Virus record (IMG/VR): IMGVR_UViG_3300026510_000009
Coordinates: 1-32,726 of that record
Direction: 5' to 3' (one strand)
Length of the DNA stretch: 32,726 nucleotides
Source: a virus
In this document: positions 1,548 through 24,515 of the stretch, one piece after another
Position numbering within the stretch: the first letter of the stretch is position 1
Layout of the letters: every line of letters starts with the position of its first letter
The notes under the pieces: generated by a model
The model's database searches: none
The model's input: only the letters and a program-made list of their open reading frames with translations
What the model was told of the DNA's origin: nothing
Position numbers and translations under genes: made by a program

Positions 1548-2636
1548 TTATATATCAAATGATAATTCTAATGATACCAAATCTGCTGAACCACTTGCTA
1601 AAACAACATCTCCATTATTAAGAACATCTACTCGGTCTCCATATGGTGATAGAATTATTCTACCTTCAGGACGATATCCAACTGGCAAAGTGAATATTAT
1701 ATTATCAGTTTCTGATGTTCTTTTAACAAGCCCTTTCATTACTACACGATTTCCCTCTTTTTTGTAACCAGCGTGTCTATATCCAGACGGATAGCTGCTT
1801 CCATTGTAATTTACCCATCCTTTGTTCAAGGTTGGAGTTATCCACGTTGACTTACTTACTTTTGTTAAATATAAATCTTCTAAAAATGCATCAACTTCAC
1901 TATTAAAATCCTGTTGACTATCCCCAACAGCTACTTGTATGGTGCCATAATTAGAGTCTAACTCTATATTATCTGGATGAAGATTATATAGAAAATTTTT
2001 ATCATTATTGGTAAAATCATTAGTTGATAAACCCTTACCTGTTACTTTATCTACCTTATTATCTTGCAAATCAACAATATCATTTGTATTATCGCTTATT
2101 TGTTGGGTTGCTTCAGTATTAAAATTAGCTTGTGTGTCTCCAGCATCTACACCATCACCAACAGCATAACTTGCTTGTAATGTAATAATATTCTCTGTTA
2201 ATTCTGCACTAGTTATAAATTGAGATAAGTCTAAAGTTAATTCACTTCCGTCTGTATCTAATAAATGTAATGTTTCACCAACAAGCGATAAACCATTTGT
2301 GTGTATATCTACCACTAAAGCAGATAAATCAATGGTTACATCATTACCATCTTTAAAATCAAAAGTTAATGTATGATTTACATTGTCAGAACTTACGTTT
2401 ATAACTCTATCGCTTAATAATCTAGCCTTTAATACATCTGTTAAATCATTAGTTGATAAATTCTTTCCTGCTACTTTATCTACTTTGTTGTCAAATACAT
2501 TTTGAATACCATCAATTTTATCAAGTGGTATTTGCTCTTCTTTATGCCAGAAGGAATCAAAAGCAGCCCAAAATTGCGTTTGCGTTGGTTTTAGCCCTGT
2601 TCTGAACCAGTTTTTTATTGTGTTTAAGTTTATCAT
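1548..2636 (-). CDS. Tail fibre / receptor-binding protein
   Basis: A 362-residue protein at the end of the tail operon. The N-terminus (MINLNTIKNWFRTGLKPTQ) is typical of Bacteroidota phage fibre proteins, with a motif in which the gene product attaches ahead of a repetitive shaft. Residues about 50-65 and about 193-208 are related repeats (NKVDKVAGKNLSTND and NKVDKVTGKGLSTND). They are followed by beta-rich, Asp/Asn-rich shaft sequence and a C-terminal globular part rich in Gly, Tyr and Val (from about 265). It starts 2 nt downstream of the neighbouring fibre gene. Host-recognition role inferred from position and composition. Confidence 0.75.
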   Translation of the reverse strand: MINLNTIKNWFRTGLKPTQTQFWAAFDSFWHKEEQIPLDKIDGIQNVFDNKVDKVAGKNLSTNDLTDVLKARLLSDRVINVSSDNVNHTLTFDFKDGNDVTIDLSALVVDIHTNGLSLVGETLHLLDTDGSELTLDLSQFITSAELTENIITLQASYAVGDGVDAGDTQANFNTEATQQISDNTNDIVDLQDNKVDKVTGKGLSTNDFTNNDKNFLYNLHPDNIELDSNYGTIQVAVGDSQQDFNSEVDAFLEDLYLTKVSKSTWITPTLNKGWVNYNGSSYPSGYRHAGYKKEGNRVVMKGLVKRTSETDNIIFTLPVGYRPEGRIILSPYGDRVDVLNNGDVVLASGSADLVSLELSFDI

Positions 2637-2638
2637 AA

Positions 2639-3427
2639 TTATAGTTTTATTAGTACATAGTCAAAATATACGTTTTGCACAGCAACAGAAAGCTCCCTAA
2701 CTCCTATTTTAAAATTTGTTAGGTTTCTTGCGGCAACAATGTATATGATGTCATTATTTTGATTCCAAGAAGCTTCGCTAATACTTCTAAAATTGCCAAG
2801 TACTAAATAATTTGTTGTACCTACATTTGGTATATTAATAGTAATAAGCTCGTCATCACCATTTGGTGCATCGCCCAAGTGTATAGATCCGCTGTGTAGT
2901 TTTTCTACATAGCTTGTTAACTTATCAGATACTGCTTGGCTGAGCTTTTTTGGAGTTATTATTTTTTCATCGTTAACCCCCGATATTGCTTCAGCTGTTG
3001 TTGCAAGTTTTGCAATTCCTTTTATAGACTCAGTTGCTGTTGGTAGCGTTTCTTCACTTAGCTCTTTTAACGTTTTTGTTCTTGTAAATTCTGACCAGTT
3101 TATAGCATTTACTCCAGATCCAAATTCGGCATATCTTTTACGGTATACTGGTTTTGTGAGCCCGTCCTCAAAAACTGCTGTAGTAACATCTTCTCTAATT
3201 AGTATAGTTTGTTGTAACGTACCTCCTATAAATTCTAGAAGTTCTCCGTTAACATAAATAACGCCGTTACTAATAGTGCCGCCAGTCTGCACACAGCCAG
3301 TTATAATAGTTTTTTCGCCTATCATTGCACCATATTTATTAAATATAGCGTATGCCGTTTGCATACTGTCTAGTGTGTTTGTTTCTAATGGAAAACCTCC
3401 TGTTTGTAGAAAATCAATTGTATTCAT
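2639..3427 (-). CDS. Tail fibre-like protein
   Basis: A 262-residue structural protein. The N-terminal part (FLQTGGFPLETNTLDSMQTA) looks like a baseplate-attachment segment. The centre carries a classic phage fibre repeat, ATESIKGIAKLATTAEAISG followed by ITPKKL, matching the ATxxxxGIVxLAT...AVTPxxL pattern of collar and fibre repeats. The C-terminal 80 residues are beta-rich. It overlaps the preceding gene's stop by 4 nt (ATGA) and is followed 2 nt later by the second fibre gene, so the two are co-translated. It probably connects the baseplate to the distal fibre. Confidence 0.75.
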   Translation of the reverse strand: MNTIDFLQTGGFPLETNTLDSMQTAYAIFNKYGAMIGEKTIITGCVQTGGTISNGVIYVNGELLEFIGGTLQQTILIREDVTTAVFEDGLTKPVYRKRYAEFGSGVNAINWSEFTRTKTLKELSEETLPTATESIKGIAKLATTAEAISGVNDEKIITPKKLSQAVSDKLTSYVEKLHSGSIHLGDAPNGDDELITINIPNVGTTNYLVLGNFRSISEASWNQNNDIIYIVAARNLTNFKIGVRELSVAVQNVYFDYVLIKL

Positions 3428-13652: not shown

Positions 13653-14005
13653 ACGTTCATTTCAAAGTGTGGTGTATCAATAAAACCATCTTTTATATCG
13701 TTTTTGTTCCAATCGCCTCCCCAACGGTTAAGCGGATGTAGGGTTTCCCAATAATCACCAACTATTTTAATAATATCCCAGTTATAAGTAAGTTCGTTAT
13801 CTACAAAAAAATTGAAGTCAACTGCCAATCGTTTTAAATGGTTAGAATGCATTGTTTTGCTTTTACCACTTTGCATATAAATAAGCTGTTGCTCTCTAGT
13901 ACGATATGCCTCACCAAAGGTTAATTCTATACCTTTTTCATTGGCAAATACAATAAGCTTTGCAATGTTTTTAGTAAATATTCTTTGGTATTGGCTTAAT
14001 TTCAT
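13649..14005 (-). CDS. Endolysin, M15-type D-Ala/L-Ala-D-Glu peptidase
   Basis: 118 residues. The zinc peptidase signature SNHLKRLAVDFNFF (SxHxxxxAxD, about residues 79-92) supplies the first His and Asp ligands, and DTPHFEM near the C-terminus supplies the catalytic/ligand His and Glu region. FGEAYRTREQQ matches the arginine-containing substrate strand of VanY/endolysin family members. It is compact and single-domain with no cell-wall-binding module. It overlaps the holin-like gene by one base and the Rz-like gene by four, forming a three-gene lysis cassette. Confidence 0.85.
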   Translation of the reverse strand: MKLSQYQRIFTKNIAKLIVFANEKGIELTFGEAYRTREQQLIYMQSGKSKTMHSNHLKRLAVDFNFFVDNELTYNWDIIKIVGDYWETLHPLNRWGGDWNKNDIKDGFIDTPHFEMNV

Positions 14006-14298
14006 TACTTCCCGTTTTTTCCGTTTAACTGTTTAAATTTTTGCAGTTCCATTACAAGCTCTCTATTGGTAGCGATTAATTTTCGGTTGATGTTTTCTAG
14101 CTTCATCAATTCCTCTATGGCTTTGTCTAAACGCATTGCCATATCGTCTAGTAAGCCTTGATAATATTTTGCCGCTTTTATCTCGCCCTCAGTTTCCATT
14201 GTTTTAAGTTCCTGTGCATTTTTCTTACGTGCAAAAAACCAAGCTATTAAAGCCGTGAAAAACGGAATACCAACAGATGTAAGTAATTCTTGTATCAT
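14005..14298 (-). CDS. Holin-like protein with one membrane span and coiled coil
   Basis: 97 residues. Residues 5-24 (LLTSVGIPFFTALIAWFFAR) form a single membrane span, followed by a long amphipathic helix (LLDDMAMRLDKAIEELMKLE...). Single-span small proteins immediately before an endolysin are usually holins, though a chaperone-like membrane protein is possible. It is the first gene after the capsid gene and the structured element, beginning 13 nt beyond the element's terminal A-tract. Confidence 0.6.
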   Translation of the reverse strand: MIQELLTSVGIPFFTALIAWFFARKKNAQELKTMETEGEIKAAKYYQGLLDDMAMRLDKAIEELMKLENINRKLIATNRELVMELQKFKQLNGKNGK

Positions 14299-14310
14299 TT
14301 TAATAGTTTT

Positions 14311-14422
14311 AAAAAAGGTACCGTGTGTTCTAGATTGTCATAAATATTGTACAACTTTATCACTCAAGTAATGGGTTGTAATATCACGCGTATTCTAGAT
14401 TCGGCGTGAGACTCACGGTACC
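14311..14422 (-). ncRNA. Structured RNA-like element with terminal U-tract, between capsid and lysis genes
   Basis: Read on the minus strand: outer stem GGTACCGTG (14422-14414) with CACGGTACC (14325-14317), then six T. Inside are two more helices. One is CACGC/GCGTG (14408-14404 with 14389-14385) enclosing the palindrome TCTAGA. The other pairs 14384-14375 with 14355-14344 and has an inner ATTAC/GTGAT hairpin. The result is a three-way junction. A second TCTAGA at 14329-14334 could pair with the hairpin-loop copy. The U-tract suggests termination or a processed small RNA. It starts 7 nt after the capsid stop codon and contains no ORF. Function unknown. Confidence 0.7.
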
Positions 14423-14429
14423 TAAATTA

Positions 14430-15347
14430 TTAAATTATCGCACCAATATGTTTGTTTTGGTAAGGCACTACTACAAAGTAATGTCTGTATGCCAAATCAT
14501 TGGTTTGCCCTTTAGGATTGGTTTTTGCAGGTGTAAAATACTGCTTGGTTAATCCTGTTTTTTTTGCAATTCGGGTTTTTACAAATCCTACAGATGCTGT
14601 TTTGTCGGTTGCCACCGGTACAGCTCCAAAAGGTTTTTTAGCTCCTGTGTTGTCGTAAACCGGCATTACCGGATATTTATGCAACTCAAAATCTGCAATA
14701 AATGGAGCAGGTTTTCCTTTGGCATAATCTACCAATTGGTTACCAAAGTTTTTACGGTCTAACAACAAATCGTTCCAATGGTCAGAGCATAATACTAAGC
14801 GTCTGCCTTCCGCTTCCCAACCTGCTTTATCACAAGCTTGTTTAAAGGCTACCAAGTCTTCGTAAGTAAGTCTTTTTCTACCTGAAGGATCGGTTAAACC
14901 GTCTGCTCCTCCTGTTGCAGCAATTACAGGCGTATCTGCTGTATTGGTTTGCGGTGCAATAGAATGGATTGCTTTTTTAAACTTGTTACTTAATACGGCT
15001 CTTACAAGCGATTTAGTAACTAAGTCTATCTTGTCATAAGACGCACCAATAATTTGGTCATCTGATAAAGTAACTACTTTTGTTTGCAATTTATCCAACG
15101 TAATTTCAATGGTTCCGTCATCATACACTTGTACAGGAATAGGATATGTAGTATTATTGATTAATACATCTACTTCAAATTCGGTACTTGGTACGTAAAT
15201 TTTGTTTTTTTCGGAAAGCTGTCCTTGGTTAATTTGCGTAACATCTACAGCTATCTCAGGCACTCCGTCTAAAAACGATGCTTGGTCTGAATTGTCAAGG
15301 TTTTGGATAACACGTCCTAACCATACTTCTGGAAAATTTTGTGGCAT
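14430..15347 (-). CDS. Major capsid protein (HK97-fold, Mu T-like)
   Basis: 305 residues, following the protease-scaffold gene by 5 nt as in Mu and many HK97-fold phages. The N-terminal arm (MPQNFPEVWLGRVIQNLDNS) is typical of Bacteroidota Mu-like capsids. A middle A/P-domain region (LTYEDLVAFKQACDKAGWEA, RRLVLCSDHWNDLL) and the C-terminal YRHYFVVVPYQNK complete the fold pattern. The gene is less AT-rich and uses a narrower codon set than its neighbours, as expected for the most highly expressed virion gene. Confidence 0.85.
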   Translation of the reverse strand: MPQNFPEVWLGRVIQNLDNSDQASFLDGVPEIAVDVTQINQGQLSEKNKIYVPSTEFEVDVLINNTTYPIPVQVYDDGTIEITLDKLQTKVVTLSDDQIIGASYDKIDLVTKSLVRAVLSNKFKKAIHSIAPQTNTADTPVIAATGGADGLTDPSGRKRLTYEDLVAFKQACDKAGWEAEGRRLVLCSDHWNDLLLDRKNFGNQLVDYAKGKPAPFIADFELHKYPVMPVYDNTGAKKPFGAVPVATDKTASVGFVKTRIAKKTGLTKQYFTPAKTNPKGQTNDLAYRHYFVVVPYQNKHIGAII

Positions 15348-16379: not shown

Positions 16380-16411
16380 GATAAGAAAGAGGTATTAAAA
16401 AAATAGTTGTA

Positions 16412-16462
16412 AAGCCACTTGACAGATGTGTAAAGCAGGTTTACAACGTTGTCAAGTGGCTT
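16412..16462. promoter_or_regulatory. 51-bp nested dyad between divergent late operons, candidate activator/operator site
   Basis: Outer arms AAGCCACTTGACA (16412-16424) and TGTCAAGTGGCTT (16450-16462) are a perfect 13-bp inverted repeat. Inside, on the same centre, TGTAAA (16429-16434) and TTTACA (16440-16445) form a second one. TGTAAAGC also occurs at 16409-16416 as a direct repeat of 16429-16436, and ACAACGTTGT (16443-16452) is itself palindromic. Predicted start points of both operons lie outside it, so it acts more likely as DNA than RNA. Confidence 0.65.
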
Positions 16463-16471
16463 AACGGTTTT

Positions 16472-23521: not shown

Positions 23522-23748
23522 AATCCTAATTTTTTAATTAAACTTAAACGTAAATCTTTACTTTTAATAGTAGTAATTAAGGATAACACTTCAACCATAG
23601 TATCAATAGAAACTTTTACAAAATTGTTTTTTTGTCCATTTTTCATTAATTTTCTACTTATATCAAATCGGTTAATTGTGCCTAAAGTTTGAACTATATC
23701 CAACATTAAAGCAACTGAATATTTATATGTTATTATATCTGTTTTCAT
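23518..23748 (-). CDS. Early operon small protein, unknown
   Basis: 76 residues, helical with hydrophobic segments (YSVALMLDIVQTLGTI, MVEVLSLITTI), no membrane span strong enough to call. It overlaps neighbours by 4 nt on both sides, so it is translated as part of the KilA-N cluster. Function unknown. Confidence 0.6.
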   Translation of the reverse strand: MKTDIITYKYSVALMLDIVQTLGTINRFDISRKLMKNGQKNNFVKVSIDTMVEVLSLITTIKSKDLRLSLIKKLGL

Positions 23749-24362
23749 AGTTCTAATTTTAATTGGTTAGACTGGTTTTTATAGTCATAATAGCCTTTTA
23801 ATAGGTCTAAGTACTTACTTGTTATAAAGTTTCTTCCAAATAGTTTTCTAAATTGGTTTGGGTTTCTTTTACGGCGTAATGTGGCTTTTGGATATTTTAC
23901 ATTGCCTAGCTCTTTACAGGTCAAGCCATAAGGATATAATACTTCTCCATTATAAACCGTTGCTGGTATGCCGTATTTTTGTGGTAAGGCAATGGCTCTT
24001 TGAGTAATGAGTTCTTTTAACTTATCATTACAAGCAATATAAAACTCTGGGCTTAACCATTGTGCAAAGAGTAAAGCTACATCTTCGTGAAACCAAGTTC
24101 CTGGATTATTTCCTCCACGTTTAACTACTTGTAAATCAGCCAAACTCCATTTTCGCACTTTGGAAAGTGCTTTTACTAAATTTTTTGCCTGATCTGTTCT
24201 CAACCATTTAATTGGCTGTTGATTAAAAGGTTTCGCCATTTGTGTGGCGTTAATCATCATTTTACCATTGATTTCTTCAAAGGTAATGTTACTTCCGTGA
24301 AAGTTTAACACAGATAGTTGCTCATTCATACCTTGAGCTACGGTTTCTTTTTTTGCATTCAT
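23745..24362 (-). CDS. KilA-N domain protein
   Basis: 205 residues from MNAKKETVAQGMNEQL; a GTG at 24452 would add 30 residues and cannot be excluded. The KilA-N pattern is clear: INGKMMINATQMAKPFNQ, IKWLRTDQAKNLVKAL, GGNNPGTWFHEDVALLFAQW and LSPEFYIACNDKLKELI (about residues 30-130). A C-terminal half with YPYGLTCKELGN and a basic RRKRNPNQFRKLFGR follows, perhaps a second DNA-binding region. KilA-N proteins bind nucleic acid and often regulate phage development. It has its own promoter at 24516-24548. Confidence 0.8.
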   Translation of the reverse strand: MNAKKETVAQGMNEQLSVLNFHGSNITFEEINGKMMINATQMAKPFNQQPIKWLRTDQAKNLVKALSKVRKWSLADLQVVKRGGNNPGTWFHEDVALLFAQWLSPEFYIACNDKLKELITQRAIALPQKYGIPATVYNGEVLYPYGLTCKELGNVKYPKATLRRKRNPNQFRKLFGRNFITSKYLDLLKGYYDYKNQSNQLKLEL

Positions 24363-24515
24363 CTTATTTGATATTTTAATGTATGCGAGTTCGCCCTTAG
24401 GTGTATCAAACCACTTTAGAAGAGGAATAACAGCCTTGTCGGTACTGTTCACCGTAGCGAACTCTATTAGTAAAAAATTTTGTTTTAGAATTTCTTCTAA
24501 AGCGATTTGATACTA

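Follow-up and report, generated by a model that had tools for sequence, protein, structure and literature searches.

What occupies the gap between the capsid gene and the lysis genes of a Mu-like phage when the gap is free of open reading frames and yet strongly folded? The question is raised by a stretch of 32,726 nt (the window), an IMG/VR record of an uncultured virus. On its minus strand, at 14422-14311, an outer stem closing on six T's lies between a major head (capsid) protein gene (14430..15347, minus strand; phrog_267 major head protein, E 3.9e-19) and a 97-aa holin-like gene (14005..14298, minus strand), so named because of its place and its relatives. The holin-like protein lacks a convincing family match and has an N-terminal hydrophobic segment and then a FARKKN-type motif, as in relatives; the second gene downstream of the element encodes an M15-type endolysin. 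Based on the anatomy of the element, its predicted folding and the same gap in related phages, we propose that it is probably an intrinsic (Rho-independent) terminator with an expanded loop, at which the mRNA would end after the capsid gene.

On the minus strand, GGTACCGTG (14422-14414) is complementary to CACGGTACC (14325-14317), and T6 follows at 14316-14311. The 9-bp stem and six-T tract of a preliminary description are hence present, and a flanking A/T pair extends the stem to 10 bp, giving the arms AGGTACCGTG (14414..14423, 5') and CACGGTACCT (14316..14325, 3'), the last T of the latter doubling as the first T of the T6 tail. The stem is perfect, with 6 G-C pairs and a duplex energy of -16.5 kcal/mol, and the T-tract stands on one side of it only, oriented with the capsid operon. 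The described setting was borne out in full: the element begins 7 nt past the capsid stop (which ends at 14430), terminates 12 nt upstream of the holin-like gene start (14298), and lies in a gap in which no ORF of at least 60 aa was found. A search of the gap for a Bacteroidota-type promoter was negative. The combination of stem and T-tract exceeds chance: when the gap was shuffled 5000 times with dinucleotides preserved, 2 shuffles contained a perfect stem (9 bp or longer) that runs into at least 5 T in 6. The full element folds with a z of -4.3, none of 300 shuffles being equally stable, whereas its 88-nt interior (14326..14413), taken without the outer stem, is only weakly above shuffles (z -1.7; 34/500 as good). 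Further inverted repeats are found elsewhere in the window: a long nested imperfect one at 760-854 (outer arms 26 nt, inner arms 20 nt), without assigned gene; a 26-nt imperfect one at 16409-16465 with AAGCCACTTGACA/TGTCAAGTGGCTT, between divergent gene blocks; and a 21-nt one (90%) at 24403-24513, with arms 69 nt apart, which overlaps the start region of the reading frame 23745-24452 (minus strand).

The predicted minimum-energy fold (-30.3 kcal/mol) is a nested rod composed of the outer stem, a TCTAGA/TCTAGA helix and a long inner hairpin. The two TCTAGA copies, at 14394-14399 (5' side in the RNA) and 14329-14334 (3' side), had been described as placed for loop pairing; both are present, but this fold pairs them nested, not crossing, and the crossing arrangement would contribute at most about -5.2 kcal/mol, with the pseudoknot penalty not yet subtracted. 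The proposed three-way junction fared similarly, in that it can form but is not the minimum-energy fold: forcing the CACGC/GCGTG hairpin, i.e. two hairpins within the outer stem, yields -28.7 kcal/mol, 1.6 less stable than the rod. We therefore regard the junction as possible and not favoured, energies of this kind not discriminating between the two folds. Common to both is the inner hairpin at 14354..14380 (arms TTACAAC and the GTTGTA region, with ATTAC..GTGAT inside), most pairs of which have a probability of 0.84-0.99. The loop also contains a 15-nt direct repeat (14322-14336 and 14387-14401; 87% identical, 65 nt apart), which holds both TCTAGA copies and might have been left by an insertion or a duplication. 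A cloning-site artefact, as the KpnI/XbaI-like sites might suggest, was considered and rejected, since the record is that of an uncultured virus and both hexamers, GGTACC as well as TCTAGA (6 observed versus 5.4 expected, hence not over-represented), are as frequent in the window as chance predicts.

The repeated CGTG/CACG and TCTAGA words permit alternative pairings, and growing partial transcripts are predicted to fold differently. Together with the position before the lysis genes, this would suit a regulated attenuator for lysis timing, in which the loop pairings serve as an antiterminator that is stabilised late by a phage or host factor. However, the two states differ widely in stability, as leaving the GGUACC arm unpaired gives -21.0 versus -30.3 kcal/mol, and because of this cost of about 9 kcal/mol a balanced terminator/antiterminator switch is unlikely. 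The alternative pairs are also absent from the closest relative of the window, L001, and we consider such regulation very improbable.

The same gap was compared across about 100 IMG/VR loci gathered via the capsid protein and its neighbours, and was read in those loci whose capsid stop could be located. Related Bacteroidota Mu-like phages supplied 53 distinct gaps with a length of 25 nt or more; of these, 43 contain a plain hairpin, 6 an expanded one (the window, L001, L009, L068, L104 and L003) and 4 neither, the division between plain and expanded being dependent on thresholds and L003, scripted as plain owing to a 7-bp inner hairpin, having been reassigned by hand for its 13-pair outer stem around 114 nt. 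At the stem end, at least 5 T in 7, counted over a stretch that takes in the last few stem bases, are present in 31 of the 43 plain-hairpin gaps. The plain terminator stems of relatives reach about -17 to -18 kcal/mol, against -16.5 for the window, and in L009, compared with L043/L046, extra sequence lies within a plain terminator stem. As the hairpin, usually with T's after it, persists in relatives, the ordinary terminator, which the preliminary description had set aside, is the better-supported core of the element. A terminator is nevertheless not required at this position, since the gap is shorter than 25 nt in 29 relatives.

The most direct comparison is offered by L001, with 95% capsid identity. 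Its DNA is 87% identical to the window on one side of the element and 80% on the other, and the unaligned block between them corresponds to window 14304-14417. L001 keeps the terminator design though the rest of the block is replaced: a different stem, AGGCTACTACTT..AGTAGTAGCCTTTTT, encloses about 120 nt and is followed by T5, and this stem differs little from the stems of plain terminators, e.g. in L084 (AAAAGGCTACTGCAAAAGTAGTAGCCTTTTTTTT). The L001 interior has no significant similarity to that of the window and is not more stable than its shuffles (281/500 as good), the one small likeness being TCTAGAAYA directly before the 3' arm, which in the window includes the second TCTAGA copy. Unrelated sequence in the same gap of a related phage had been named beforehand as the outcome that would speak against a functional RNA, and it is found in exactly this block. 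Contigs of three close relatives end at or beside the same gap (the end of L100, which is identical to L004, the end of L002 and the start of L104); such breaks would fit a region that is locally variable in the population, although three contigs are a small number.

Combining these observations, we infer termination at the element, and the following sequence of events appears plausible. Once minus-strand transcription has passed the end of the capsid gene, the GGUACCGUG/CACGGUACC stem would form ahead of the U6 tract and cause some of the transcripts to be released. Such partial termination, whatever its efficiency, would protect the end of the capsid mRNA by a stem and let less transcription run on into the genes for the holin-like protein and the endolysin, so that, judging from position, more capsid than lysis mRNA might result. 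The 88-nt interior would then represent an expanded terminator loop, in which internal pairings may bring both arms together. The loop is most likely fast-changing, without detectable sequence conservation, and any function of its own is putative. Of the features that characterise intrinsic terminators, the element has a stable G+C-containing inverted repeat and a T-run directly after the 3' arm; the loop, typically below about 10 nt, measures 88 nt between the arms, and a scan for terminator-like elements with loops of 3-8 nt only accordingly does not list it. We file it as a terminator variant because a short loop is typical of the class and not strictly defining. Against this reading, a loop so far above the usual size could cause folding to lag behind release.

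Homology searches were conducted with the element and its surroundings. The whole window gave no Rfam 15 match at gathering score, and relaxed thresholds brought up no meaningful match in the gap. When phages and plasmids were searched with the element by BLASTN, matches were at chance level or lacking; an interior 15-mer had 75 matches in IMG/VR, none with matching surroundings, and literature searches on long-loop terminators and on phage 23S mimics yielded nothing relevant. The Mu-gpT-DE RNA motif (RF03012), a family listed in PMC7657543, has no match in the window; of 20 records covering the window and relatives, 18 gave none up to E 10 and the other two were at chance level. An RNA of the phi29 pRNA kind, associated with the capsid or with packaging, to which only the place beside the capsid gene points, is by these data extremely improbable: a phage with a 95% identical capsid protein carries unrelated sequence instead, the gap of 29 relatives is too small for any RNA, and Rfam contributes no match.

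A structured RNA is nevertheless found in this gap in two capsid relatives, L003 (3997-4142, plus strand) and L104 (124-276, plus strand), as an RNA of about 150 nt between the capsid and holin genes, with 11 of 29 pairs doubly changed between the two sequences. L104 and L002 share their metagenome of origin, and L104 overlaps the end of L002. Model R1, built from this pair, scores L114 (2367-2509, minus strand; a 90-kb contig) at E 3e-10 and L198 (5250-5393, plus strand) at E 3e-5, where only the remainder of the R1 match is independent, both having first been retrieved by a pattern of the conserved 3' segment. In the four-member alignment A4, 90.5% of cells pair versus 63% in shuffles, and 34 cells are doubly changed versus 10 in shuffles (0/500) and at most 9 in slid controls, a large margin in an alignment that was fitted to the R1 structure and is so biased towards it. 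The conserved loops comprise UGGAA, GUGA.AG and GAAAAGAACC..GGAGUGAAAUAGA, and there is a likeness to 23S rRNA domain I in the 3' segment, GAAAAGAACC(hairpin)GGAGUGAAAUAGA. Compared with the domain I stretch of a Bacteroidota 23S gene, each of the four members outscores all of 500 shuffles, L114 and L198 partly by construction; models R1 and R2 both have their best spot in E. coli 23S at 416-507, and R2, run against 395 Bacteroidota genomes, finds its top match in a 23S gene (L207, E 0.002).

Rfam gave no accepted match for this RNA; an AdoCbl-II riboswitch in L003 was rejected at 28.4 bits, below the cut-off of 36.5, and is absent in L104. Among the genome matches of R1/R2 in Bacteroidota, L207 was discarded as the 23S rRNA gene, L208 as coding and L112 as chance, judged from sequence. 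As further members, L206 was dismissed as lying within coding sequence and L108 as lying within a transposase-like gene, and most matches of the last pattern scan were coding. In L114, the RNA belongs to about 430 nt without assigned gene (2249-2678, minus strand) between structural (tail) and putative lysis genes, where three copies of a hairpin repeat (GCGTGGGAATCTCGCAAAGATACCCAATTACGC), the covarying RNA and a terminator-like hairpin, TCGAGGC..GCCTCGATTTTT, follow one another. In L198 (5250-5600), a short reading frame comes after the RNA; its 66-aa product (..FRSHGAPCSCHICSHTKYKR..) contains Cys and has no counterpart in Pfam, PHROGs or NCBIfam.

These relatives, along with the stable folding of the full window element, argue for an alternative in which the gap takes different functional RNAs in different phages, each inside the terminator stem, about 105 nt or longer, ending at the U-tract and acting in trans, with the one in the window lacking known relatives. 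The window element is, however, not a member of the L003/L104 type: neither R1 nor R2 scores it, and 14304-14422 is empty even with filters off. No homologue of the interior was found by BLASTN, by the IMG/VR 15-mer or with R1/R2, and its stability is near that of shuffles, with the L001 interior not above them. Likeness of the element itself to 23S was considered and rejected as unconvincing, the matching word GTACCGTGAG lying within or near the shuffle range: against the whole E. coli 23S, 74 of 200 shuffles are as good, and against domain I, 10 to 201 of 500, varying with scoring and 23S copy. Hence the branched architecture is not supported as a sign of a functional RNA in the window, while the broader expectation of a structured RNA in this gap came true in the two relatives, and for the window itself we regard this alternative as unlikely.

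Taking the expanded-loop terminator as the preferred reading, the window documents a capsid-lysis terminator slot whose loops, enlarged to about 50-120 nt, are exchanged among close relatives, a finding of modest importance. Of more weight is the side finding of a covarying phage RNA without Rfam match, part of which is close to domain I of bacterial 23S rRNA; it is present both in the same slot of relatives and in an apparently unrelated phage, there between tail genes and putative lysis genes. Provided that it is expressed, this RNA could be tested as a phage RNA aimed at the ribosome or at rRNA-binding proteins. A more speculative idea, which we consider rather unlikely in this form, is that in Bacteroidota Mu-like phages the capsid/lysis gap serves as a site where interchangeable structured RNAs dock inside a terminator stem, the one in the window being an orphan type, and that the RNA of the relatives, with its 23S domain I-like 3' segment, may bind a host ribosomal or rRNA-handling protein.

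Compared with known systems, the element resembles phi29 pRNA, a phage RNA of roughly 100-170 nt, in size, but it differs in phage type and place, has no Rfam counterpart and is not conserved with the capsid. The Mu-gpT-DE motif, which we take from its name to be an element downstream of Mu gpT-type head genes, likewise follows a Mu-type major head gene, but has 53 positions only. The covarying RNA of L003, L104, L114 and L198 lies in the same gap (L003 and L104), and its outer stem often has U's after it, but its conserved loops are all absent from the window. The intrinsic terminators in the same gap of relatives (e.g. L084, L036 and L043) agree with the element in their G+C-containing stem, T-run, place, strand and similar stem energy, and differ in their loop of about 3-12 nt, where the window has an 88-nt interior with further predicted helices.
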